This document shows, piece after piece, positions 15,322 through 28,643 of a stretch of DNA of 64,000 nucleotides (positions are counted from its first letter, which is position 1; the number at the start of each line of letters is the position of its first letter). Below the pieces are notes generated by a model that saw only the letters and a program-made list of their open reading frames with translations, was not told the origin of the DNA and searched no databases. The stretch lies in NCBI RefSeq assembly GCF_003205495.1, contig NZ_QJRX01000003.1:62001-126000 (forward strand). Reading direction: 5' to 3'. A program made the translations under genes and the position numbers. This DNA is from Aquipseudomonas alcaligenes (GTDB taxonomy: Bacteria; Pseudomonadota; Gammaproteobacteria; Pseudomonadales; Pseudomonadaceae).

Positions 15322-15327
15322 GAAGCT

Positions 15328-15461
15328 GTGCCTAGGGAGAAGGCACGGTCGCCAGGACGGTGATCGAGGAACCACTGCAGGATGCAGTTCATCAGGAAGA
15401 TGAAAGGATTCTCAGGGAGTAGGGAAGAAAGAGCGGGCGGTTAATCACCGCCCCTTTTTTT
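15328..15461 (+). ncRNA. rsmZ: RsmZ regulatory small RNA
   Basis: An RNA of about 130 nt between rpoS and fdxA, the genomic position of rsmZ in pseudomonads. It contains about eight GGA motifs, several displayed in hairpin loops: GTGCCT/AGGCAC (15328-15333, 15341-15346) with loop AGGGAGA; ACTGCA/TGCAGT (15374-15379, 15383-15388) with loop GGA; TTCATC/GATGAA (15388-15393, 15399-15404) with loop AGGAA. Such sites bind and sequester the translational repressors RsmA/RsmE. It ends with hairpin GGGCGG/CCGCCC and seven T (15455-15461). Expression should depend on GacS/GacA through the upstream palindrome. Confidence 0.92.
15435..15461 (+). terminator. rsmZ intrinsic terminator
   Basis: GGGCGG (15435-15440) pairs with CCGCCC (15448-15453) around TTAATCA, followed by T7. 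Confidence 0.9.
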
Positions 15462-15983: not shown

Positions 15984-18548
15984 TTAGATGCGCGTCTTCC
16001 ATGTATATAACAGTTCCAGGGCGCGGCGCGGGGTCAGATCATCGGGATTGATCTTGCCCAATTCCTCCAGCACCGGGTGCGGCAGGCTGGCGAACAGGTC
16101 GTTCTGCAGCGGAGCGGCCGGCTGGCCAGGCTCGCTGCGCGGCACCTCGTGCGGCAGGCTGGTGGTCTCCAGGCGCGCCAGGTGCTCGCGGGCGCGGGTG
16201 ATCACCGGGGCGGGCACGCCGGCCAGCTGCGCCACCGCCAGGCCATAGCTCTGGCTGGCCGGGCCGGGCAGCACGTGATGCAGGAAGACGATGCGCTCGT
16301 TGTGCTCGGTGGCGTTGAGGTGCACGTTGGCCACCACCGGCTCGCTTTCCGGCAGTACGGTCAGCTCGAAGTAATGGGTGGCGAACAGGGTCCAGGCGCG
16401 CAGCTTGGCCAGGTGTTCGGCGGCCGACCAGGCCAGCGACAGGCCATCGAAGGTGCTGGTGCCGCGGCCCACCTCGTCCATCAGTACCAGGCTGCGGTCG
16501 CTGGCGTTGTGCAGGATGTTGGCGGTCTCGCTCATCTCCACCATGAAGGTCGAGCGGCCGCCGGCCAGGTCATCGCTGGAGCCGATGCGGGTGAAGATGC
16601 GGTCCACCAGCGACAGCTCGCAGCGGGTTGCCGGCACGTAGCTACCGATGTGGGCGAGCAGCACGATCAGCGCGGTCTGGCGCATGTAGGTGGACTTACC
16701 GCCCATGTTCGGGCCGGTGATGATCAGCATGCGGGTGCTGTCGTCGAGGCTCAGGTCGTTGGCCACGAAGGGCGTGTCGAGCACCTGCTCGACCACCGGG
16801 TGACGGCCCTGGTCGATACGCAGGCAGGGCTCCTCGACGAAGCGTGGACGATTGAGGTCGAGGTTCAGCGCGCGCTCGGCCAGGTTGGCCAGCACGTCCA
16901 GCTCGGCCAGGGCGGCGGCGGTGTCCTGCAGCGGTGCCAGCTGGGCGATGAGCAGTTCCAGCAGCTCCTCGTACAGCTGCTTCTCACGGGCCAGGGCGCG
17001 GCTCTTGGCCGACAGCGCCTTGTCCTCGAAGGCCTTCAGTTCCGGGGTGATGAAGCGCTCGGCGCCTTTCAGGGTCTGCCGGCGGATGTAGTCGGCCGGC
17101 GCCGACTCGGCCTGCTTGCTGGGCAGTTCGATGAAGTAGCCATGCACCCGGTTGTAGCCGACCTTGAGGTTGGCCAGGCCGGTGCGCTCCTTCTCGCGCG
17201 CCTCCAGGTCCATCAGGTACTGGCCGGCGTTCTCGCTGATCGACTGCAGCTCGTCCAGCTCGGCGTCGTAGCCGGTCTTGAGCACCCCGCCGTCGCGGAT
17301 CACCGCCGGCGGGTTGTCGATGATCGCCCGTTGCAGCAGGTCGGCCAGCTCCGGGTAGGTGCGGATGTTCACTGCCAGCTCGGCCAGGTGCGGGGCGTCC
17401 AGCTCGGCCATCGCGCCTTGCAGCTGCGGCAGCGCGGCGAGGGCGTCGCGCAGGCGCGCCAGGTCACGTGGGCGGGCGTTGCGCAGGCCGATGCGGGCAA
17501 GGATGCGCTCGACGTCGCCGATGTCCTTGAGCTGCGGCTGCAGCAGCTCGAAGCGGTAGCGCTCCAGCAGGCAGGCGATGGCCTCCTGGCGCGCCTCCAG
17601 CACGCTGCGGTCGCGCAGCGGACGGTTCAGCCAGCGGGTCAGCAGGCGCGAGCCCATGGCGGTCTGGCAGCGGTCGACCACCGATTGCAGGGTGTTGTCG
17701 CGGCCGCCAGCGAGGTTGGTGTCCAGCTCCAGGTTGCGGCGGCTGGCGCCGTCGAGGATGACGGTGTCGTCCAGGCGTTCGTGGCGCAGGCTGCGCAGGT
17801 GCGGCAGGGCAGTGCGCTGGGTCTCCTTGGCATAGGCCAGCAGGCAGCCGGCGGCGCCGATGGCCAGAGTCAGGCCTTCGCAGCCGAAGCCCTTGAGGTC
17901 CTGCACGGCGAACTGCTGGCACAGGCTCTTGCGCGCGCTGTCCAGCTCGAAGTCCCAGGGCGCGCGGCGGCGCACGCCGCGGCGTTTCTCCAGCGGCAGG
18001 CCCTGGGGCCAGTCGTCGGGGATCAACAGCTCGGCCGGGGCCAGGCGCTCCAGCTCGGCCAGCAGGTTCTCCCAGCCTTTCAGTTCCTGCACGCTGAAGC
18101 GGCCGCTGGTGATGTCGAGCATGGCCAGGCCGAACAGCTTCTCGTCGCCCAGCACGGCGCCGACCAGGTTGTCGCGGCGCTCGTCGAGCAGCGCCTCGTC
18201 GCTGATGGTGCCCGGGGTGATGATGCGCACCACCTGGCGTTCCACCGGGCCCTTGCTGGTGGCCGGGTCACCGATCTGTTCGCAGATCGCCACCGATTCG
18301 CCGAACTTCACCAGACGTGCCAGGTAGCCCTCTGCCGAGTGGAAGGGGATGCCGGCCATGGGAATGGCCTGGCCGGCCGACTGGCCACGGGCGGTAAGGG
18401 TGATGTCGAGCAGGGCCGCGGCCTTCTTGGCATCCTCGTAGAACAGCTCGTAGAAGTCGCCCATGCGGTAGAACATCAGCATGTCCGGATGCTGGTTCTT
18501 CAGCTTCCAGTACTGCTGCATCATCGGTGTGTGTGCTGAAACATCCAT
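15984..18548 (-). CDS. mutS: DNA mismatch repair protein MutS
   Basis: 854 residues. MutS recognises mismatches and small loops and, with ATP, recruits MutL. The mismatch-reading Phe-x-Glu is in [15 protein letters not shown], the Walker A in [16 protein letters not shown], Walker B in [16 protein letters not shown], and the ATPase signature FATHYFELT. Length is that of the family. No good Shine-Dalgarno precedes the ATG at 18548, but alignment with other pseudomonad MutS proteins ([17 protein letters not shown] near the N-terminus) supports the start. Confidence 0.98.
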
Positions 18549-18906
18549 AAATCAATGACTTAGCTTAAGTTGTCTAATTGGGCGGGGCATCGCTGTCCAA
18601 GACTTTTGCCCCGAGCCGGCACTGTTGGCCGCAATCCTGGCCAGGGCGGGCCCTGTGCACCGTCGATAGTGCGCAGGCCGATCTACCGCGAGGCTGGCCA
18701 GTTGCCATGGCGAGCCTGCGCTGGGGCATCGCTGATCGACTGCGCGCGGAGGTCGTGCAGGGTAGCGTCTTTCACGCCAGCGCGCTCGCATGCCTTGTGG
18801 CGGTGTTGCCTCAGCAGCGCTTGAGAGCGACGGGAAGGCGTCTTTCACGCGCCTGGCATGGCAGCCTGTTGGGCTACAGGCGGTGTCCAACCGCGCCGCT
18901 GCCGTC
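18549..18906. other. intergenic region between mutS and nhaR-like gene
   Basis: 358 nt with no convincing gene on either strand. It must contain the mutS promoter. A 13-bp direct repeat GCGTCTTTCACGC occurs at 18765-18777 and 18838-18850. The remaining sequence is GC-rich and may be remnant DNA at the junction of the inserted dab block. Confidence 0.5.
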
Positions 18907-19791
18907 TCACTCCTTGCGATCGAAACGATTCAGCAGCTCATCCAGGATGCCCAGTCTGAACTGACGCTGCAGGGTCACGGCGAAGAACTGCTCGGCGATA
19001 TCCGGCACTTCGGCATACAGCTGCAGGGCGCCGCTGCGCAGCTCGTCCTGCACCACCACGGCCGGCAGCAGGGCCAGGTCGCCGGAGTCGCGCGCCAGCA
19101 GGCGCAGCATGGCCATGTCGTCGACCTCGGCACAGATGATCGGGTTCAGGCCATGGCTGTGGCAGTAGACCTCGAACTGGCTGCGTACATCGCTGCTGCG
19201 CCCCGGCACGATCAGGCGGGCCTGCTGCAGGTCGCGGCGCAGGTCGAAGGGCTGTGCGTCGGCACGTGGCGGGCCGATCAGGCACACCGCCTGGCGGTCG
19301 AGCAGGCGGCATTGCCAGGGGCGCAGGCTGTCGGCGCTGACCGCCCGGTTGGTCAGCACCACGTCCAGCTTGTGCAGGGCCAGGCGCTCCAGCAGCTCGT
19401 CCAGGCTGCCGGATTCGAGGGTGATGCGCAGGTCGTCGCGGCCGAGGAAGGGGCGCAGCAGGTTTTCCTGGAAGTTGCGCGACAGCGTGGCCACCGCGCC
19501 GATGCGCAGCGTCTGGCTGACCTGGCGGGTGCTCAGCAGGGTGGTTTGCAGTTCGTTGCCGAGGGCGAAGATGGTCTCGGCGTAGTCCAGCACCAGGCGT
19601 CCCGCCTCGGTCAGCTGCAGGCTGCGGCCGGCGCGGATGAACAGCGGGTGGCCGAGCTGTTCTTCGAGCACGCGGATCTGCGTGGACAGGGCCGACTGCG
19701 ACACGTGCAGCGCCTCGGCGGCGCGGGTCAGGTTGCCTTCCTTGGCCACGGCCCAGAAGTAGTGCAGGTGATGGAAATTCAGCCGGCGCAT
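18907..19791 (-). CDS. LysR family regulator, NhaR-type
   Basis: 294 residues with the start MRRLNFHHLHYFWAVAKEG and helix-turn-helix AAEALHVSQSALSTQIRVLE. The N-terminal half closely follows NhaR, the sodium-responsive activator in enterobacteria. However, no nhaA lies nearby: the gene is divergent from dabB-dabA with a 103-bp intergenic region, so it more likely controls inorganic carbon uptake here. The LysR substrate-binding domain is complete. Family assignment is firm, the target is inferred from orientation. Confidence 0.85.
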   Translation of the reverse strand: MRRLNFHHLHYFWAVAKEGNLTRAAEALHVSQSALSTQIRVLEEQLGHPLFIRAGRSLQLTEAGRLVLDYAETIFALGNELQTTLLSTRQVSQTLRIGAVATLSRNFQENLLRPFLGRDDLRITLESGSLDELLERLALHKLDVVLTNRAVSADSLRPWQCRLLDRQAVCLIGPPRADAQPFDLRRDLQQARLIVPGRSSDVRSQFEVYCHSHGLNPIICAEVDDMAMLRLLARDSGDLALLPAVVVQDELRSGALQLYAEVPDIAEQFFAVTLQRQFRLGILDELLNRFDRKE

Positions 19792-19795
19792 ATTT

Positions 19796-19814
19796 CGTTC
19801 TTCTAAAGTGAACG
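19796..19814. promoter_or_regulatory. possible LysR operator upstream of dabBA
   Basis: CGTTC-N9-GAACG dyad directly after the regulator start, in an AT-rich intergenic stretch (19796-19850). Geometry fits an autoregulatory LysR site. Not matched to a known binding motif. Confidence 0.4.
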
Positions 19815-19894
19815 AACAATTCTTATCTATCTATTTTTAATAGTTCAAGCGCTCCATGAGACTAGCGCCATCGCGCCCCCATGGAGATCGCCTC

Positions 19895-21412
19895 ATGTTC
19901 AGCCTGTCCTTCCCTCTGGCTCAGGGGATGCCCTGGCTCTTCGCCCTGGCGCTGTTGCTGGCAGCATGGCTGCGCGGGTTCTGGTGGCCCGCGCGCATCG
20001 CTGGCGGCCTGGGCCTGGCCCTGGTGCTGGGCGCCTGGCTGCAGGCGGCGCTGGACGGCCAGGACAACGACCGCCTGGGGCTGGCCATGCTCGGCCTGGT
20101 CGGCCTGCTGGCCTGGGTGATCATCGAGTACTCGTGGCGTTACCTGGAGGGCGAGCCCGGCCAGCGCCGCTACGTGCTGGCCCTGTTGGTCACCCTGGCC
20201 GCCGTGGCCACGGTGGTGACCAGCACCGACCTGATCCTGCTGGTGGGCGCCTGGATACTCTCCAGCCTGAGCCTGCACCAGTTGCTGACCTTCTACCGCG
20301 ACCGCCCTCAGGCGCTGGTGGTGGCGCACAAGAAATTCCTCGCCAGCCGCCTGGCCGATGTCGGCCTGATTCTCGCCGCGCTGCTGCTGATCCGCGCGAG
20401 TGGCGACAGCAATATCGCGATCATTCTGGAGAGCCTGAACACCCGCCTGCAGGCCAGCGGCCAGCTGGGCTGGGACCTGCAGCTGGCCGCGCTGCTGCTG
20501 GCCCTGGCGGTGATCCTCAAGTCGGCGCAGCTGCCGGTGCACGGCTGGCTGATCCAGGTGATGGAGGCGCCGACGCCGGTGTCGGCGCTGCTGCATGCCG
20601 GGCTGGTCAACCTCGGCGGCTTCCTGCTGCTGCGCTTCGCTCCGCTGTTCTCCGCCGCCGTGCCGGCGCAGAGCCTGCTGGTGGTGGTCGGCGGGCTGAC
20701 CGCGGTGATCGCCGCGCTGGTGATGATGACGCGCATCAGCATCAAGGTGCGCCTGGCCTGGTCGACCTGCGCGCAGATGGGCCTGATGCTGCTGGAATGC
20801 GGCCTGGGCCTGTATGAACTGGCGCTGGTGCACCTGCTCGCCCACTCGCTGTACAAGGCCCACGCCTTCCTCGCCGCTGGCGAGACCGTGGCCCAGGCAC
20901 GGCAGCACGCGCTGCAGCCCCAGGCGCCTGCGCCCGGTCTTGCTGGCCTGCTGCTGGCCCTGTTGCTGGCCGGTATGACTCTGGCACTACTGCAGGGGCT
21001 GTGGGTCTGGCTGCTGCCGTCCCAGGCGCTACCGCTGGTGGCTCTGGCCATTCTCGCCGTCGGCCTGGCGCCCTGGTGCCTGCACCGTGGCCAGGTGCTC
21101 TACGGGCTGGCGATGTTCGTCCTGCTGCTCGGCGCCTACCTGCTCTGGCACCAGGCCGCGGCCTGGATACTGCAGCAGCCGGGAAGCGCCGCATCCTGGC
21201 CGCTGAGCGCGCTGGCGCTGCTGCTGTTCCTCGGCCTCTACCTGCTGCAGGCGCTGATTCTCGCCCGCCCCCAGGGCGCCCTGGCGCGGCGCCTATATCC
21301 GCTGGCCTTCGCCGGCTTCTACCTGGATGAGCACTTCACCCGCCTCACCTTCCGCCTGTGGCCGGTCCGCGCGCCGCAGGTTTCGCCCCGCGCCACAGGA
21401 GATCGCCCATGA
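19895..21412 (+). CDS. dabB: DabB, proton-conducting subunit of inorganic carbon transporter
   Basis: 505 residues; ATG 19895 has GGAGA 8 nt upstream. A polytopic membrane protein of the NADH dehydrogenase subunit L/Mrp family (about 13 hydrophobic segments), with the proton-conducting core motif LKSAQLPVHGWLIQVMEAPT and HAGLVNLGG, followed by LLAHSLYKAHAFL. Next to a DUF2309 gene this is DabB, which couples cation flux to bicarbonate accumulation by DabA. The stop overlaps the dabA start by 4 nt (ATGA). It is not part of a Nuo or Mrp operon. Confidence 0.92.
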   Translation: MFSLSFPLAQGMPWLFALALLLAAWLRGFWWPARIAGGLGLALVLGAWLQAALDGQDNDRLGLAMLGLVGLLAWVIIEYSWRYLEGEPGQRRYVLALLVTLAAVATVVTSTDLILLVGAWILSSLSLHQLLTFYRDRPQALVVAHKKFLASRLADVGLILAALLLIRASGDSNIAIILESLNTRLQASGQLGWDLQLAALLLALAVILKSAQLPVHGWLIQVMEAPTPVSALLHAGLVNLGGFLLLRFAPLFSAAVPAQSLLVVVGGLTAVIAALVMMTRISIKVRLAWSTCAQMGLMLLECGLGLYELALVHLLAHSLYKAHAFLAAGETVAQARQHALQPQAPAPGLAGLLLALLLAGMTLALLQGLWVWLLPSQALPLVALAILAVGLAPWCLHRGQVLYGLAMFVLLLGAYLLWHQAAAWILQQPGSAASWPLSALALLLFLGLYLLQALILARPQGALARRLYPLAFAGFYLDEHFTRLTFRLWPVRAPQVSPRATGDRP

Positions 21413-23856
21413 CCGCGCACGAACACTTCCCCGGCCTCGACCGGGACGCCCTGCACGGCGCTGCCCGGCAGGCCTGTGAACGCATCGCGCCGACCTGGCC
21501 GCTGGATCGCATGATCGCCGTCAGCCCCCTGTGGGAGCGTCGCGACCTGCCCTGGCAGACCGTCGCCGCGCAGCTCTGGCAGCGCGCCGGCAGCCGCCTG
21601 AGCCTGGCCGCCGCGGACTACCGGCAAGCCTGGCAGGCCGGCCGCATCGGCGCGCGCCACCTGCAGCAGGCCCTGGCCGAGCAGGACCAGGCCTGGACAG
21701 TCGAGCAGTTGCTGACCGCCCTGGATGCCGAGCCGGAGCACACCAGCGGCCTGCCGCTGCTGGAAGACCTGGCCGACCCGGGCATCGCCCTGCCTGGCTG
21801 GCCGACACTGATCACCCAGCAGATCGGCCAGTGCTGCGCCGCCTGGTTCGACCACGAGCAGGCCGACTGGCGCCCGGATGCCGGCGTCGGGCTGTACCAG
21901 GCCTGGCGCAGCAGCATGCTGGCGGATCGCGGGCTCAGCGTGCTCAGTGCCTGTGCCGACCTGCACGGGCGCATCAGCGAACTGCCGCTGCAGCCGCAGG
22001 CGGCGCTGGAAGCGGCGGTGCAGCGCCTGGGCCTGGCCCGTGATGACTGGGAGCCCTGGTTCGACTGCCTGCTGCTGCGCAGCCTGGGCTGGGCCTCCTG
22101 GTGCGCCTACCGGCGCTGGCAGGCACGCCTGCAGGGCGGCGACGACCAGACCCTGGTGGAACTGCTGGCCATTCGCGCGGCCTGGGAATGGCTGGTGGAT
22201 GACCGCCAGCGCGATGCGCAGAGCCGCTGGCAGCGTTGGCGCACGGCCTGGCAGGCCGGCCTGCAGCAATCACCCTCGGCCACCTGGCAGGCCCTGCAGC
22301 TGTGGCAGCGGGCCGATGAGCTGGCCTGGCAGGAACAACTGCAGCGCCGGCTCGGCCAGGCGCCTGCGGCCACCCCGGCGCAGGTGCCGCTGGCCAAACT
22401 GTTCTTCTGCATCGATGTGCGTTCCGAGCCGCTGCGCCGGGCCCTGGAGCAGGTCTGCCCGGAACTCGAGACCGGCGGCTTCGCCGGCTTCTTCGGCCTG
22501 CCCATCGCCTACACGCCGCTGGGCACCTGCGCTACCCGCCCGCAGCTGCCGGGCCTGCTGGCGCCGCAGCTGCAGGTCAGCGACAGCAGCGGCGACGCCG
22601 CGCAGGACCGGCAACTCGCTCAGGTGCGCCAGCAGCGACTGGCGCGCCAGGGTCGCTGGCGCCTGTTCGAGCGCCTGCCGGCCTCCACCTTCAGCCTGGT
22701 CGAGAGCATCGGCCTGGGCTATGCCGGCACCCTGGTCGGGCGCACCAGCGGTTTGCTCGGCGGCACGCCGGAGGTCCACCGCAGCGCCTGGCGCGATGCC
22801 GAGTGGCAACGCCTGAGCCCGCAATTGCCGACCATGAGCCTGGCGCAGAAGGCCGAGCTGGCCACGCGCATCCTCCAGGCCATGGGCCTCAGCGGCCAAG
22901 TGCCGGAATTGCTGGTGCTGATCGGCCATGGCAGCCAGAGTGCCAACAACCCCCAGGCGGCTGGCCTCGATTGCGGCGCCTGCTGCGGGCAGAGCGGCGA
23001 GGTCAATGCGCGCCTGCTGGCCAGCCTGCTCAACGACGCTGAAGTGAGGGCCGAGCTGCGCAGCCGCGGGCATGAGCTGCCGGCGCACTGCCAGGTGCTG
23101 GCCGGCCTGCACAACACCAGCACCGACGAGGTGCGGATTTTCGGCCAGCAGAATCTGCCGGCCGCCCTGCAGCCCGCCTGGCAGCGCCTGCGCCAGGCCC
23201 TCGACCAGGCCACCGTGCGGGTGCGCCAGGAGCGTGCCGATGCGCTGGGCCTGGCGGCGGCGCGCGAGCAGCCGGGCAAGCTGCTCGACCTGCTGCGCCG
23301 GCGCGCCCGCGACTGGGCGCAGACCCGCCCCGAATGGGGCCTGGCCGGCAACGCCGCGTTCATCGCCGCGCCGCGTGCGCGCACCCGTGACGTCGACCTG
23401 CAGGGCCGCGCCTTCCTGCACGACTACGACTGGCGCCAGGACCGCGAGGGCAGAGTGCTGGAGCTGATCATGACCGCGCCCATGGTGGTGGCGCACTGGA
23501 TCAACCTGCAGTACTTCACCTCCACCACCGACAACCTGCGTTTCGGCAGTGGCAACAAGCTGCTGCACAACGTGGTGGGCGGCCATATCGGCGTGTTCGA
23601 GGGCAACGGCGGCGATTTGCGCATCGGCCTGGCCCGCCAGTCGCTGCACGACGGGCAGCAGTGGCTACACCGGCCGCTGCGCCTGCACGTGGTCATCGAA
23701 GCGCCGCAGGCGATGATCGACCGGGTGATCGAGGCCCACACGGTGGTCCGCGACCTGGTGCAGCACGGCTGGCTGCACCTGCTGCGCCTGGACGGCCAGC
23801 CGGCGCGCCTGGAGCGGCGCACCGCCAGCGGCTGGCAAGCCCTGCCGGACGCCTGA
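21409..23856 (+). CDS. dabA: DabA, carbonic-anhydrase-like subunit of inorganic carbon transporter (DUF2309)
   Basis: 815 residues. DabA is a cytoplasmic, membrane-associated zinc protein that hydrates CO2 vectorially. The four zinc-site residues are visible as Cys334 and Asp336 (FFCIDVRSEPLRRAL), His507 (LIGHGSQSANNP) and Cys522 (LDCGACCGQ). Their spacing (C-x-D, +173 to His, +15 to Cys) equals that described for Halothiobacillus DabA, so the site is intact. It is translationally coupled to dabB. In a heterotroph the system likely supplies bicarbonate for carboxylases at low CO2. Confidence 0.93.
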   Translation: MTAHEHFPGLDRDALHGAARQACERIAPTWPLDRMIAVSPLWERRDLPWQTVAAQLWQRAGSRLSLAAADYRQAWQAGRIGARHLQQALAEQDQAWTVEQLLTALDAEPEHTSGLPLLEDLADPGIALPGWPTLITQQIGQCCAAWFDHEQADWRPDAGVGLYQAWRSSMLADRGLSVLSACADLHGRISELPLQPQAALEAAVQRLGLARDDWEPWFDCLLLRSLGWASWCAYRRWQARLQGGDDQTLVELLAIRAAWEWLVDDRQRDAQSRWQRWRTAWQAGLQQSPSATWQALQLWQRADELAWQEQLQRRLGQAPAATPAQVPLAKLFFCIDVRSEPLRRALEQVCPELETGGFAGFFGLPIAYTPLGTCATRPQLPGLLAPQLQVSDSSGDAAQDRQLAQVRQQRLARQGRWRLFERLPASTFSLVESIGLGYAGTLVGRTSGLLGGTPEVHRSAWRDAEWQRLSPQLPTMSLAQKAELATRILQAMGLSGQVPELLVLIGHGSQSANNPQAAGLDCGACCGQSGEVNARLLASLLNDAEVRAELRSRGHELPAHCQVLAGLHNTSTDEVRIFGQQNLPAALQPAWQRLRQALDQATVRVRQERADALGLAAAREQPGKLLDLLRRRARDWAQTRPEWGLAGNAAFIAAPRARTRDVDLQGRAFLHDYDWRQDREGRVLELIMTAPMVVAHWINLQYFTSTTDNLRFGSGNKLLHNVVGGHIGVFEGNGGDLRIGLARQSLHDGQQWLHRPLRLHVVIEAPQAMIDRVIEAHTVVRDLVQHGWLHLLRLDGQPARLERRTASGWQALPDA

Positions 23857-23860
23857 AAAC

Positions 23861-23893
23861 GCCGAGGCCGCGTTCGGATGACGCGGCCTCGGC
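23861..23893. terminator. hairpin between convergent dabA and cysD
   Basis: 13-bp perfect arms (23861-23873, 23881-23893) and a 7-nt loop, without a T-run. Likely blocks convergent transcription; terminator call is tentative. Confidence 0.6.
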
Positions 23894-23916
23894 TGTGGCA
23901 ACAGGCGCTGGAGTGG

Positions 23917-24852
23917 CTAGAAGTAACCCTCGATTTTCTTCTTCTCCATCGAGCCTTCCTGGTCATGGTCGATGACCCGCCCCTGGCGCTCGGACGTGCG
24001 GGTCAGCAGCATCTCCTGGATGATCTCCGGCAGCGATTGCGCCTGCGACTCCACCGCACCGGTCAGCGGGTAGCAGCCGAGGGTGCGGAAACGTACCCAG
24101 CGCGTCTGGATGCCGGCGCGCTGCTCGGGCGTGAGGTGCTCCAGCAGCCGCTCGTCGTCCACGCAGATCAATGTGCCGTGCAGCTCCACCACCGGGCGCG
24201 GCGCCGCGCGGTAGAGGTCGACGATCTCGATGTTCTCCAGGTGGATGTACTGCCAGATATCCAGCTCGGTCCAGTTCGACAGCGGGAACACCCGCAGGCT
24301 TTCGCCGGCGTTGATCCGGGTGTTGTACAACTGCCACAGCTCGGGGCGCTGCTGCTTGGGGTCCCAGCGCTGGTGCGGATCGCGGAAGGAGCACACACGC
24401 TCCTTGGCCCGCGACTTTTCCTCGTCGCGCCGGGCGCCACCGAAGCAGGCGTCGAAACCGTACTGCGCCAGCGCCTGCTTGAGCGCCTCGGTCTTCATGA
24501 TGTCGGTGTACTTGGCCGAGCCCACGGAGAACGGCGTGATGTTCAGCCGCGCGCCGTCGGGGTTGATGTGCACGCGCATGTCCAGGCCCAGGCGCGCGGC
24601 CAGGCGGTCGCGGAACCGGCCCATCTCGTGGAATTCCCAGCCGGTGTCGACATGCAGCAGCGGAAACGGCAGCGGGCCGGGAAAGAACGCCTTGCGCGCC
24701 AGGTGCAGCAGCACGGTGGAGTCCTTGCCGATCGAATAGAACAGGCAGGGGTTGCGCATCACCGCCACCACCTCGCGCAGGATGTGGATGGCCTCGGCCT
24801 CGAGGGCACGCAGGTGGGTCAGACGGGAAACGCTGGGGGCGAAGGCATTCAT
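23917..24852 (-). CDS. CysD-like sulfate adenylyltransferase small subunit, orphan copy
   Basis: 311 residues; the ATG at 24852 overlaps the stop of the upstream gene (ATGA). It has the ATP-pyrophosphatase PP-loop [69 protein letters not shown] and the C-terminal [15 protein letters not shown], all as in CysD, which adenylates sulfate to APS together with the GTPase CysN. No cysN or cysC is adjacent. The sequence differs from the canonical pseudomonad CysD (as I recall it) in many positions, so it is probably a paralogue. It may use CysN encoded elsewhere or have another nucleotidyl-transfer role. Confidence 0.85.
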
Positions 24853-25706
24853 GGATTGCATTGCTCGCAGTGGCCGGCACTGGCCAGTTGGCTGACGGGG
24901 CGGCGTTCCTCGTGCTGGCAGGCCGGGCAGGCCCAGATGTGCGCCGCCGCCAGCGGCGTGCCCAGGCCACAGTCGGCACAGAGCAGGCCGGGCTCGCTGC
25001 GCACCACGGCAAAACCAGGGGCCGCGCAATGCGGACAGAGACTGGCCAGACGTTGCGCCAACTGCGTAGCCGCCTCACGGATCACTGCCTGGCGCAGGGG
25101 GTTGAGGTGGGCACGCATATCGGTTTCCAGCCAGACGCTCGGCTCGCGCGCCAGCAACCATTCCAGCTGCCCGAGCAACCAATCGCGCTGGCGAATGCCC
25201 TTGCGGAACCAGGCCTCGCCGGGGCGCCCGAGGATCAGCGCATGCTCGGGAAAGCGCGCACGCTGCATGAAGGCCTCGGCGGCCTGCAGGCTGTCGACCT
25301 CGGCCTGGGCGTAGTTGGTCGCCCCCGAGCCGGCCAGGGCGAACACCGGGTACTGCAGCTGGGCATCCCACAGGCAGAGGATCTCGTAGTCCCAGGGCAT
25401 CCAGCCCAGGTGCGGGTCGCGGGCGAAGCTGCCCTCGCTGCCCAGGCCGTAGCGCATTCCGCTCAGCGAGCAGGCCAGCCTGGCCTTGGCCAGCGCCGTG
25501 TCATGGGCGCTGCCGCTGCGCGGCACCTCGCGGCTGAAGGTGCCGAAGTGGTCGGTGTCGTAGCTGCTGACCGCTTCGATGGCGAAGCCCAGCGGTGCCA
25601 GCGCCTCGACCACCAGGCGGGTCTTGTCATGGCAGGTGAGGAAGGCGACACACCGCGCCAGGGACTGGGCGGCATGATGCCCATGGGGGGCAAGAGCGGC
25701 AGACAT
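24849..25706 (-). CDS. zinc-ribbon protein of unknown function (DUF6671-like) coupled to cysD
   Basis: 285 residues from the ATG at 25706 (AGGA upstream); a GTG at 25745 is an alternative. The N-terminal part ([53 protein letters not shown]) matches from memory the uncharacterised DUF6671 family. The C-terminus carries two cysteine pairs (CPHC, CADC) then CPAC and CEQC, giving two predicted zinc ribbons. Its stop overlaps the CysD-like start, so the two proteins are made together. No catalytic function known; the family name is a recollection, not a search result. Confidence 0.65.
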
Positions 25707-25756
25707 GGCGATGATTCCTGCTGAGGGAGACGCAGGCATTTTCACCAGCCGAAGCT

Positions 25757-25804
25757 ATAGTCAAAAATAGATTATCAATTACAAAACCATCGCTTATTGA
25801 CTAT
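25757..25804. promoter_or_regulatory. inverted repeat at LysR start, possible autoregulatory operator
   Basis: ATAGTCAA (25757-25764) and TTGACTAT (25797-25804) are perfect inverted repeats 32 bp apart in an AT-rich divergent intergenic region; the right arm overlaps the ATG of the LysR gene. Confidence 0.5.
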
Positions 25805-26726
25805 GAAAAGACCGCGCTTTCACACCCGCCAGACCACCTTTCGCCAACTGGAAACCTTCCTCGCCGTGGCCGAGCGCCTCAGCGTGACGGAGGCGGCGCG
25901 CGCCCTGCACCTGGCCCAGCCCTCGGTGTCGACGCAGATCACCAAGCTGGAGCAGGCCCTGGGCATGAACCTGTTCGAGCAGCTGGGCAAGCGCCTGCAC
26001 CTGACCGATGCCGGACGCGAGGTGCAGGCCGGGGCAAGGGAGATCTTCGATGCCCTCGATCATCTGGAGATGCGCCTGGCCCAGCTCAATGGCCTGACCG
26101 CCGGACAGCTGCGCCTCGGCGCGGTGACCACCGCCAAGTACCTGGTGCCGCGCCTGCTCGGCCCGTTCTGCCGGCAGTACCCGCAGGTCGAGGTGGAGCT
26201 GAACATCGCCAACCGCTCGGAAGTGATCCGCCGCCTGGAGGACAACCGCGACGACCTCTATGTATTCAGCCAGCCGCCGCGGCACCTGGACCTGGACGTG
26301 GTGCCCTTGGCCGACAACCCGCTGGTGGTGATCGCCCCGGCCGGGCATCGCCTCGCCGGCCAGTGCCTGCGCTGGGAGCAACTGGCGGCGGAACCCTTCC
26401 TCAGCCGCGAACCGGGCTCCGGCACGCGCCTGGCCATCGAGGAGCACTTCGCCCGCTTTGGCTGGAGCCTCAGGCCGCAGATGACCATCGAGAGCAACGA
26501 GGCGATCAAGGAGTCGGTCGCCGCCGGCCTGGGCATCGCCATCCTGTCGCGGCACACGCTGATCCACACCGCGCCGGGCAATCTGGTGGAGCTGGATGTG
26601 GAAGGCTTCCCCATTCCTAACCGCTGGTACCTGGTGCGCTGGCGCACCAAGAATCCATCGCCGGCCGCGCTGGCCTTCAGCCGTTTCGCCGAGATACCGC
26701 TGGAGACCCCGACGCTGCCGGCTTGA
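25803..26726 (+). CDS. LysR family regulator, CbbR-like
   Basis: 307 residues: helix-turn-helix TTFRQLETFLAVAERLSVTE, AARALHLAQPSVSTQITKLE, then a substrate-binding domain with GAVTTAKYLVPRLLGPF. This type resembles CbbR, the activator of Calvin cycle operons, but no RuBisCO genes are in the window. It is divergent from the zinc-ribbon/cysD pair, which it probably regulates, and lies on the opposite side of the dab genes, so inorganic carbon status could be a shared input. Domain assignment firm; the CbbR relationship moderate. Confidence 0.8.
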   Translation: MKRPRFHTRQTTFRQLETFLAVAERLSVTEAARALHLAQPSVSTQITKLEQALGMNLFEQLGKRLHLTDAGREVQAGAREIFDALDHLEMRLAQLNGLTAGQLRLGAVTTAKYLVPRLLGPFCRQYPQVEVELNIANRSEVIRRLEDNRDDLYVFSQPPRHLDLDVVPLADNPLVVIAPAGHRLAGQCLRWEQLAAEPFLSREPGSGTRLAIEEHFARFGWSLRPQMTIESNEAIKESVAAGLGIAILSRHTLIHTAPGNLVELDVEGFPIPNRWYLVRWRTKNPSPAALAFSRFAEIPLETPTLPA

Positions 26727-26731
26727 GCCTC

Positions 26732-27676
26732 TCAGTCCAGGCGCTGGCTGGCGCGACTCAGACGGTCGTGCACCGCGGCCCAGGCGTCCTGCAGCGGCGG
26801 TAGCTGGATATACAGGCGCTCCAGGCCCAACGCATCGAGCTGGTAGAGCGCGGCATACAGGCGTGCGGCATAGGCCTGCGGCTCATCGCCCAGGTCCAGG
26901 GCCGGCCCCTGGCTGGGCTGCGCGCGCCCACACCAGAGCCAGCCGCAGCGCGGCGAGGCAAGGGCCTCGGCAGGTGCCTTCACGAAGGCCAGGGTCGTGG
27001 TGCTGGGCGCGTAGTGGCGATGGTGCTGGCCGGGCGCGCGCACGGCGCCGGCCTTGCCTTCCAGCGGCTCGCCAAGCAACGCCTCCAGCCGATCCTGGCC
27101 GAGCATGCCGCGGCGCAGCAGGCGCGGGCTGTCGCCCGGCAACAGGCTGACGATGCTCGACTCGAGGCCCACCTGGCAGGGACCGCCGTCGAGAATCCAC
27201 AGGTCGCTGCCGGCGAACTGCTGCGCCACATGCTCGGCGCTGGTCGGGCTGATCGACATGTAGCGGTTGGCCGAGGGCGCCACCAGGCCTCCACCGAAGG
27301 CCGCGAGCAGCGCCTGCGCGCTCGGGTGCGCCGGCACGCGCAGGGCCACGCTGTCCTGGCCGGCGGTGACGCTGCGCGAGACTTCGTCACGGGCCGGCAG
27401 CACCAGGGTCAGCGGCCCCGGCCAGCAGGCGTCCATCAGCCGTCGCGCGGCCGGTGGAACCTCGGCGGCCCACTGGCCGACCTGCTCGGCGCTGGCCAGG
27501 TGCACGATCAGCGGGTTGCTGCTCGGCCGCCCCTTCAGGGCGAAGACCTGCTCCACCGCCGCCGGCTGGCAGGCATCGGCGGCCAGGCCGTAGACGGTTT
27601 CCGTGGGCATGGCGACGAGGCTGCCGCCGCGCAGGCGGGTGGCGCACTGTTGAATATCGGTGGTGATCAGGGGCAT
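26732..27676 (-). CDS. L-threonylcarbamoyladenylate synthase, Sua5 type
   Basis: 314 residues: an N-terminal YrdC domain (LVAMPTETVYGLAADA, FALKGRPSSNPLIVHL, WPGPLTLVLPA, VALRVPAHP, VAPSANRYMSISPT) and a C-terminal Sua5 domain after a linker (GQHHRHYAPSTTTLAFV). The enzyme condenses threonine, bicarbonate and ATP to threonylcarbamoyl-AMP for t6A37 in tRNA. The use of bicarbonate as substrate makes its position beside dabAB suggestive. Pseudomonads usually also have a short TsaC, so this may be a second copy. Convergent with the LysR gene, 5 nt apart. Confidence 0.9.
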   Translation of the reverse strand: MPLITTDIQQCATRLRGGSLVAMPTETVYGLAADACQPAAVEQVFALKGRPSSNPLIVHLASAEQVGQWAAEVPPAARRLMDACWPGPLTLVLPARDEVSRSVTAGQDSVALRVPAHPSAQALLAAFGGGLVAPSANRYMSISPTSAEHVAQQFAGSDLWILDGGPCQVGLESSIVSLLPGDSPRLLRRGMLGQDRLEALLGEPLEGKAGAVRAPGQHHRHYAPSTTTLAFVKAPAEALASPRCGWLWCGRAQPSQGPALDLGDEPQAYAARLYAALYQLDALGLERLYIQLPPLQDAWAAVHDRLSRASQRLD

Positions 27677-28142
27677 GGCGGGTTATGTGCGGGGCTGCTG
27701 TCAGTTGCTGCGACCATAGCGCCTGGCGGCTCGATCATCCATAGCGAGGTTCGGGTAGACACAGAGAAAGTAGCGGGCGCTGATTGATCTATGCCCCGGC
27801 GACAAGTGACAGAGCCTTGCGGGAGAAAACTGCCTGGGGTCGGTTGATGTTGCCCAGGTTCCGAGCGTTGTCGTACACACTCAGGCTTCGTCAGCTTCAA
27901 GGCTGGCAACTTATCATGCCGTTGCTCCTGGCTTCGGTAGCCTCTGGACTCCACCCCAAGTCTCATTGAGGGGCCTGGAATGGATTTCTGTTTAACGAAT
28001 CAAGTCCGGTCTCTTATTCTCGCTTTCATGAGTGGAGCTGCATCATTGGGCCTGAAAGGCCATTCATATCGATCTGCCCCGCTGCAATCGCCAGGCCGCC
28101 TGGTGTAGGGTAGCCAGCCTGCCCGAACCTCCCGGAGAGCAC
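27677..28142. other. 466-nt intergenic region upstream of pncC
   Basis: No gene recognised on either strand; composition is less GC-rich than the neighbours. Short open frames (for example 27784-27969) lack ribosome binding sites and familiar motifs. It should contain the promoters of pncC and the Sua5-type gene. Likely a junction scar of the dab block. Confidence 0.5.
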
Positions 28143-28643
28143 ATGGACTCCATCACGTCGTTGGCCGAGCAGCTGGGGGCTCGGCTCAAGGCCCTGAGCG
28201 CCCAGGTCAGCACCGCCGAGTCCTGTACCGGCGGCGGCATCGCCGAGGCCATCACCCGCATCGCGGGTAGCTCGGCCTGGTTCGAGGCCGGCTACGTCAC
28301 CTATTCCAATGCCCAGAAGACTGCCCAGCTCGGCGTGCCCGCGCAGCTGTTCCCGCGTGTCGGTGCGGTCAGTCGCGAAGTGGTGGAGGCCATGGTCGCC
28401 GGTGCCCGACGCCACAGCGGCGCGCGCTTCGCCGTGGCGGTCAGCGGCATCGCCGGCCCCGACGGCGGCTCGGCGGAAAAGCCGGTGGGCACGGTGTGGC
28501 TGGCCTGGGCCGACGGCGAGCGCAGCTTCGCCGAGCGCTGCCAGTTCGCCGGGGACCGCGAGGCGGTGCGCCGGCAGACGGTCGAACGGGCGCTGCAGGG
28601 CTTGCTCCGACTGGCGGCAGGAGAAAATCCGGTTCAGGGGTAG
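28143..28643 (+). CDS. pncC: nicotinamide-nucleotide amidohydrolase PncC (CinA C-terminal type)
   Basis: 166 residues. It deamidates nicotinamide mononucleotide to nicotinate mononucleotide in NAD recycling. Signatures are VSTAESCTGGGIAEAITR with the catalytic Ser and Cys, SSAWFEAGYVTYSNAQK, and AVSGIAGPDGGSAEKPVGTVW. It is the stand-alone C-terminal domain without the CinA N-terminal MoCF-like part. Ribosome binding site GGAGAG precedes. It lies directly upstream of recA, as in other pseudomonads. Confidence 0.92.
   Translation: MDSITSLAEQLGARLKALSAQVSTAESCTGGGIAEAITRIAGSSAWFEAGYVTYSNAQKTAQLGVPAQLFPRVGAVSREVVEAMVAGARRHSGARFAVAVSGIAGPDGGSAEKPVGTVWLAWADGERSFAERCQFAGDREAVRRQTVERALQGLLRLAAGENPVQG

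Follow-up and report, generated by a model that had tools for sequence, protein, structure and literature searches.

Gene content and insertion site

The 64,000-nucleotide stretch of the Aquipseudomonas alcaligenes genome analysed here (contig NZ_QJRX01000003.1, positions 62,001 to 126,000; hereafter the window) carries, between mutS and pncC, a block of genes that includes the inorganic-carbon transporter pair dabB-dabA and a gene for a protein of the DUF6671 family, the possible role of which is our main subject. The gene order is mutS (15984-18548, minus strand), an NhaR-like LysR gene (minus), dabB-dabA (plus), cysD and the DUF6671 gene (both minus), a CbbR-like LysR gene (plus), a Sua5 gene (minus), pncC (28143-28643, plus) and, after it, recA; the names of mutS, pncC and recA come from inspection by eye rather than from a family search. 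The cysD and DUF6671 genes form one unit that is read from right to left and is convergent to dabB-dabA. Open reading frames (ORFs) and family searches bore out this content and order, which had been given in a first-pass annotation made from the sequence alone.

The dabB gene (19895-21412, plus), the start of which was picked by an upstream GGAG, encodes a Proton_antipo_M protein that scores 563.7 bits against NF006029 (cut-off 380). It adjoins dabA (21409-23856, plus) and overlaps it in an ATGA, and DabA scores 849.3 bits against PF10070 (cut-off 25). Both scores exceed the cut-offs, and the earlier assignment to DabAB inorganic-carbon uptake is supported. The sole match of DabA in a PDB sequence search was DabA2 (9rd0). 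In the structural report (PMC13144422), the active-site residues of DabA2 are named C351, D353, H524 and C539; Cys334, Asp336, His507 and Cys522 of the window DabA sit at a constant offset of 17 from these, a correspondence of numbering only. All four residues are present at the positions given earlier, but they cannot all be called zinc residues, as they had been: in the solved DAB2 the ligands are two cysteines and a histidine, and the aspartate acts on the zinc-bound water (same source), which makes Asp336 an active-site residue rather than a ligand.

The cysD gene (23917-24861, minus; start 24861 or 24852) matches the CysD equivalog NF009214 over its whole length (477.6 bits, cut-off 413), as does the subunit of the CysDN ATP sulfurylase, and its best PDB relative is 1zun. 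Unlike CysDN, it has no adjacent CysN: neither the ORFs nor a Pfam search of the window gave a cysN in the block, and the gene is an orphan, as first described. It is the third cysD of the genome; the other two, to which it is 70% and 64% identical at the protein level, each precede a gene that reads by eye as cysN. The DUF6671 gene occupies 24849-25745 (minus), with a real start perhaps at 25706. The Sua5 gene (26732-27676, minus) encodes a threonylcarbamoyl-AMP (TC-AMP) synthase with PF01300 (YrdC) and PF03481 (Sua5_C) domains, and its score of 160.1 bits against TIGR00057 (cut-off 123.2) agrees with the bicarbonate-using Sua5-type enzyme of the first reading. It is one of three PF01300 genes in this genome.

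The block is an insertion. In the three closest relatives compared, P. alcaligenes NBRC 14159 (L165), P. alcaligenes RU38D (L166) and Pseudomonas sp. GOM6 (L167), the site is empty, with only about 80 bp between mutS and pncC. Alignment of both flanks of the block with these sites by blastn showed that homology breaks at 18545 and picks up again at 28078, which places the extra 9.5 kb at 18546-28077. The block is therefore not universal at this position, and its observation as an inserted unit is confirmed. The long non-coding flanks reported before measured 358 bp (mutS-LysR) and 466 bp (Sua5-pncC). A search for pncC in 10 pseudomonad genomes with DUF6671 showed mutS beside it in 8, and the same holds for 9 of 24 pncC loci of the same genus; at pncC loci without mutS, the stretch examined was the 1.5 kb beside pncC only. 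A search for transposon ends gave no support for them. No block-framing repeat was conspicuous among the 20 direct families (of 60 or more) and the 25 inverted pairs (of 258) that were inspected, no integrase was recognised by eye among the window ORFs, and the right flank, the side that was searched, is single-copy in the genome.

A cassette at several genomic sites

A cassette of about 8.8 kb, composed of the NhaR-like LysR gene, dabB-dabA, an optional cysD, the DUF6671 gene, the CbbR-like LysR gene and Sua5, is found at other sites in nine further pseudomonads. The grouping of dab with the zinc-ribbon and cysD genes, which the first-pass annotation had proposed as a module, thus recurs elsewhere. 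The three genomes with empty mutS-pncC sites are among its carriers (L030 in NBRC 14159, L022 in RU38D and L024 in GOM6; L and G numbers denote loci and genomes of our comparison). In the ten intact cassettes, including that of the window, the Sua5, DUF6671, dabAB and nhaR genes are present in all ten, the CbbR-like gene in nine (it is missing from L013) and cysD in seven (missing from L013, L026 and L027).

Comparison by blastn with eight of these loci (L013, L022, L023, L024, L026, L027, L029 and L030) defined a conserved core at 18931-27692, which spans from the 3' end of nhaR to the start of Sua5. Its borders vary: conservation begins at 18904-18935, stops at 27615-27692 and is interrupted wherever a gene is absent. 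L028 was compared with the window cassette by protein only. The flanks of the block in the window (8 kb on each side, blastn, E 1e-20) match those of no other cassette locus; the block has therefore moved as a unit. Among the 8-kb flanks of the other loci, one side is common to L022 and L026, some sequence is common to L013, L023 and L028, and 741 bases align between L022 and L029. Judged by these comparisons, the cassette is a mobile unit with several genomic sites.

Two observations on individual carriers can be added. P. guguanensis (L025) has only 23915-27677 of the core in common with the window and retains Sua5-CbbR-DUF6671-cysD but no dabAB; the single DabA found in that genome lies elsewhere, and its DUF6671 frame (L025:10001-10891) is broken by an internal stop. 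Genome G014, which carries cassette L013, has only two PF01300 genes, the Sua5 of the block and one of a longer class, whereas the other cassette genomes tested have three, among them one of a short class (about 195 aa) that G014 lacks. On the assumption, made from size only, that the longer class is YciO and the short class TsaC, the Sua5 of the cassette may be the sole TC-AMP synthase of G014.

Each of the two LysR genes faces an operon. The NhaR-like regulator (18907-19791, minus) has HTH_1 and LysR_substrate domains and its best NCBIfam model is NhaR (145.3 bits, below the cut-off of 219), a cut-off that is passed by an SbtA-linked LysR at L109 (232.1 bits) and nearly reached at L032 (218.3 bits). 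The other regulator (25797-26726, plus; start 25797 or 25803) is CbbR/CmpR-like. CbbR is indeed its best NCBIfam model, as the first-pass annotation had it, but the score is 244.5 bits against a cut-off of 450, and no RuBisCO (PF00016) was found in this genome (G000) or in the other pseudomonads tested (12 in all). RuBisCO occurred in 6 of the 29 genomes tested overall. Because of the low score and the missing RuBisCO match, the CbbR-like regulator hardly serves the Calvin cycle, and such a control was rejected. At other loci too, DUF6671 has LysR genes of the NhaR and CbbR types next to it.

A sequence element, AAAAATAGAT, was seen in both divergent intergenic regions when these were aligned across species. 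The 64-kb window contains exactly two copies (0.01 expected), at 19829-19838 (minus) between nhaR and dabB and at 25763-25772 (plus) between the DUF6671 and cbbR genes, and both copies are conserved in relatives. Among the loci examined with a G+C content above 55%, it is confined to the two divergent regions of the cassette; eight of the ten cassettes have both copies, and L013 and L029 carry variants. Since the element stands in both divergent promoters, one regulator probably serves both operons. In Burkholderiales, the LysR/dabB intergenic regions of L100, L102, L103, L106 and L107 have in common, by eye, an AT-rich element of approximately CAATGTATTTTACAGAA.

DUF6671, its neighbours and its predicted fold

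The zinc-ribbon protein of the first-pass annotation is a member of Pfam family DUF6671 (PF20376; 144.1 bits, gathering cut-off 23.8). It has two likely Cys4 sites. The key protein of the grouping is DUF6671 and not CysD, and in other lineages it accompanies DabAB, SbtA, CmpA or BicA. DUF6671 was found in 2 of 57 relatives and in 7 of 249 genus members (one below the cut-off), this genome being included in both counts, and in 17 of 299 genomes of the Limnohabitans family and 52 of 292 of the cyanobacterial phylum.

A gene for DabA, SbtA, BicA, CmpA or a beta-carbonic anhydrase (beta-CA) was detected by tblastn (E 1e-10) in the stretch examined, 3-21 kb long, at 38 of 92 DUF6671 loci. The controls were 40 stretches of 15 kb at arbitrary coordinates of the same genomes, of which 1 contained such a gene, a BicA (Fisher, 9e-7). 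Among proteobacteria, the ratio was 26/38 against 0/22 controls (Fisher, 4e-8): 11 of 13 pseudomonad loci (DabA 10, SbtA 1) and 15 of 25 Burkholderiales loci (SbtA 9, DabA 6). The latter include L038, a 3.3-kb contig labelled Singulisphaera but Comamonadaceae-like. In the cyanobacterial phylum, 12 of 54 loci had one (CmpA 7, SbtA 2, BicA 2 and beta-CA 1, L039 having a BicA too). Dropped before counting were L017 and L018 (same regions as L023 and L028), L020 (a second copy in G073) and L011 (a match under the cut-off with internal stops). Family models confirmed the SbtA label in six loci (Sbt_1) and the carbonic anhydrase of L117 (Pro_CA), and the BicA of L118 (864.7 bits) is slightly below its cut-off of 880. 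The CmpA proteins of L041 and L124 are nearer to the solved bicarbonate-binding CmpA than to NrtA (602 vs 413 and 639 vs 451 bits).

The arrangement also differs among lineages. In Burkholderiales, dabB, dabA and the DUF6671 gene run in the same direction, whereas they are convergent in pseudomonads, and the Burkholderiales DabA proteins are 46-48% identical to that of the window. On a DUF6671 tree of 88 rows, built by a quick method in which gains and losses are indistinguishable, the starred branches force at least two changes of label for DabA, seven for SbtA, two for CmpA and two for BicA (the partial or interrupted L025, L038, L042 and L120 were left out). The Pseudomonas genome G073 has one 15-kb cluster (L019:1980-16330) of an SbtA-PII fusion, Sua5, DUF6671, TerC, an NhaR-like LysR, and cysD with a cysN-like gene, as well as IlvD- and PyrC-like genes recognised by eye. 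By its gene content, this cluster is the same idea built on another transporter. A second copy lies on contig C2 (L020), where Sua5 is split.

Other neighbours of DUF6671 were noted. Isocitrate dehydrogenase, a CO2-releasing enzyme, adjoins it in L111, L113, L114, L117 and L119, outside the count of 38; three of these five loci have a CbbR-like LysR and one (L117) has the beta-CA. The labels at these loci were confirmed by family search in L113 only, apart from the carbonic anhydrase of L117. TerC-family genes, a family linked to alkaline pH or metals, recur at a distance of up to about 7 kb from DUF6671 in seven of the 92 loci (L019, L028 and L031-L035) and may point to stress of that kind.

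An AlphaFold2 model of DUF6671 was built from 20 sequences, L025 and L042 being left out of the alignment, with a mean predicted local distance difference test score of 85.9 and a predicted template modelling score of 0.78. Residues 28-243 of this predicted model match the ITPase/HAM1 fold. VIA-align gave Z scores of 12.8 to the HAM1 protein TM0159 (root-mean-square deviation 3.7 over 138 residues), 11.7 to RdgB (3.4 over 132), 11.5 to YjjX (3.3 over 133) and 10.8 to HcgB, a guanylyl-pyridinol enzyme; the alignments hardly covered the C-terminal Cys4 part. The top two Foldseek matches were VC0702 (probability 0.99, E 0.0085), a YjjX orthologue, and YjjX itself (1.00, E 0.010). DUF6671 also resembles these enzymes in a conserved lysine in the first loop and another in the helix preceding the acidic strand. 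It is unlike them in its C-terminal Cys4 sites, in a conserved stretch of its own (ETDMRAHxNPxR) and in having no ITPase match in Pfam or NCBIfam at E 0.001. A PDB sequence search with DUF6671 returned chance-level matches only.

Twelve residues are invariant in 58 DUF6671 sequences (Lys41, Asp65, Arg76, Lys87, Ser103, Glu104, Glu121, Lys182, Glu207, Asp209, Arg211 and Arg218), and eight cysteines are each kept in 57 of them. This conservation is what an active enzyme, or else a conserved site for a ligand, would show, to which the cysteines likely add two Cys4 metal sites. No paper on DUF6671, PF20376 or IPR046612, presumably its InterPro number, was found in the open literature searched, where most subscription journals are missing, and searches for an orphan CysD, SbtA with DabA and SbtA with LysR gave no publication on the grouping. 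The DabAB part of the cassette is already known; as far as the searches show, the cassette and the DUF6671 link are undescribed.

Elsewhere in the window, an RsmZ small RNA (Rfam, 86.5 bits) was located at 15327-15461, between an rpoS-like sigma-factor gene, so named by reading, and a ferredoxin gene.

Possible role of the cassette and of DUF6671

We consider it probable, from gene neighbourhoods and the predicted fold, that the block is a mobile cassette for the supply of bicarbonate in heterotrophs, and that DUF6671 acts in it on the use of inorganic carbon, as a regulator or an enzyme that handles nucleotides. Because it recurs beside unrelated bicarbonate transporters, DUF6671 would be an inorganic-carbon component in its own right, and because of the ITPase/HAM1-like pocket of the model and the two likely Cys4 sites it would bind or hydrolyse a nucleotide and in this way signal, or take part in, metabolism that depends on bicarbonate, without transporting anything itself. 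A regulator of carbon status, part of the earlier suggestion, is plausible.

The block resembles the DAB1/DAB2 and MpsAB systems in the DabA and DabB families, the active-site residues and the dabB-dabA overlap; unlike them, it resides in a pseudomonad lacking RuBisCO, as one moving cassette with two LysR genes, Sua5, DUF6671 and an optional CysD. By the known mechanism of the family, DabAB would make and trap cytoplasmic bicarbonate by energy-coupled hydration of CO2. DabAB and DUF6671(-CysD) are probably switched together via the common cis-element, and both LysR proteins may act in an induction by low CO2, or perhaps by high pH or Na+. The bicarbonate raised by DabAB would be used by general carboxylases and by Sua5, which needs it for the N6-threonylcarbamoyladenosine (t6A) modification of tRNA. 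The human enzyme YRDC requires millimolar bicarbonate, with a Km of 13 mM in TC-AMP formation and 31 mM in t6A formation (PMC5951830), and the position of Sua5 beside a bicarbonate supply would therefore make sense.

In cyanobacteria, the low-CO2 regulon is under LysR control by CmpR/CcmR. With it, the SbtA-SbtB system likewise combines a bicarbonate transporter, a CbbR/CmpR-type LysR and a cytosolic partner. By analogy, SbtB is the nearest functional model for DUF6671, not a relative. One report (PMC13249358) has SbtB reading adenylates and binding or acting on SbtA, BicA and CmpC, the very transporters beside which DUF6671 is found. Unlike SbtB, DUF6671 is not a PII protein, has an ITPase-like predicted fold and likely Cys4 sites, and also occurs with DabAB. 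SbtC, described in 2026 in the cyanobacterial CO2-concentrating mechanism, is a newly found partner of a bicarbonate transporter; it is set apart by its description as a small protein (PMC13360264), as DUF6671 has about 280 aa. More tentatively, DUF6671 might be an unrecognised, transporter-independent regulator or enzyme of the bicarbonate economy, which binds a nucleotide and couples the inorganic-carbon state to DabAB, SbtA, BicA or CmpABCD, like SbtB in cyanobacteria but in heterotrophs lacking RuBisCO as well. In that case, the cassette would amount to a portable kit for low CO2, with a supply (DabAB) and a key consumer (Sua5, through t6A).

Several points weigh against a bicarbonate-related role of DUF6671. 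Taken alone, the cyanobacterial loci show no significant linkage (12/54 vs 1/18, p 0.10), and the stretches read there have no constant DUF6671 neighbour in most genomes. Of the 38 proteobacterial loci, 12 lack a transporter or beta-CA gene in the stretch examined. The transporter families were picked after the neighbours had been seen, several query proteins came from counted loci, and kin loci are not independent, so that the p-values are too good. Three of the seven proteins labelled CmpA, those of L232, L234 and L243 (47-64% identity, about 5.3 kb away), may be nitrate transporters. As for the fold, the best Foldseek E value is only 0.0085, and the hhalign probabilities of DUF6671 with a single YjjX and a single RdgB sequence were 0.24% and 2.6%, not usable as a sequence link, although the RdgB alignment paired the expected stretch. 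The element AAAAATAGAT may be partly a promoter hexamer, and a cell with a beta-CA, of which this genome has one gene, may not need DabAB for bicarbonate.

The alternative that survives best, though we regard it as unlikely, is that DUF6671 is a house-cleaning nucleotide pyrophosphatase of the ITPase/YjjX type, brought near the transporters by common induction under alkaline or low-CO2 stress and without a carbon role. ITPase/HAM1/YjjX folds do top the fold searches, the conserved Lys41, Lys87 and SEGSF stretch lie roughly at the places of the catalytic motifs of ITPases, and the TerC genes would fit such stress. However, this explanation leaves several unrelated bicarbonate transporters as specific neighbours unexplained; the rare and patchy occurrence of DUF6671 in the genus is unlike that of house-cleaning enzymes, and the protein has two likely Cys4 sites in addition.

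It is rather improbable that the cassette is a sulfur module in which CysD and DUF6671 either form or recycle an adenylated compound or thiolate a target, with DabAB as a passenger. The DUF6671 and cysD genes overlap, the cysD start at 24852 overlapping the DUF6671 stop in a possible ATGA coupling; CysD shares 84-99% identity with its counterparts in six further cassettes and 90% with that of the broken L025; and cysD stands with a cysN-like gene in the G073 cluster too. On the other side, CysN is not beside the CysD of the block, 3 of 10 cassettes lack CysD, and a tblastn survey of neighbourhoods gave no CysD match at any DUF6671 locus outside the pseudomonads. Because CysD is optional, the sulfur link is weak: CysD, a close paralogue of the cell's own, is an accessory, and the sulfur half of the module first suggested finds little support. 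The genome has a further pairing of cysD and a cysN-like gene (G000:C11:2825-5640, L015), near genes that read as glycan- or sulfotransferase-like.

Chance or lineage inheritance, by which neighbours were fixed once or twice and then carried along, is less probable again. It would suit the DabA label, for which just two changes are needed on the tree, and many matches are close kin of the window, L022-L042 having come from a search that was seeded with its protein and biased to its relatives. Yet an evenly drawn family survey still gave a transporter or beta-CA gene at 10 of 18 loci (L034, from the centre genome G277, and L098-L114; 9 of 17 without the centre), DabA occurs in two opposite arrangements, several transporter families are involved and the controls stood at 1/40. 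Least probable of all is a supply of zinc to, or assembly of, a transporter or carbonic anhydrase through the Cys4 sites: the eight conserved cysteines and the zinc enzymes DabA and beta-CA would agree with it, but SbtA, BicA and CmpA, which are not known to be zinc proteins, are common neighbours as well, and the nucleotide-like domain is left unexplained.

The bicarbonate supply of bacteria that do not fix CO2 has been little studied, although their biosynthesis needs bicarbonate. In pseudomonads, Burkholderiales and the cyanobacterial phylum, DUF6671 has as neighbours a number of unrelated systems for bicarbonate uptake and a carbonic anhydrase. Should it prove to be a common regulator or an enzyme linked to bicarbonate, it would offer a handle on how cells sense or spend bicarbonate and might serve as a component of engineered CO2-concentrating systems. 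The presence of Sua5 in the cassette raises the testable question of whether t6A in tRNA limits growth at the CO2 level of air.

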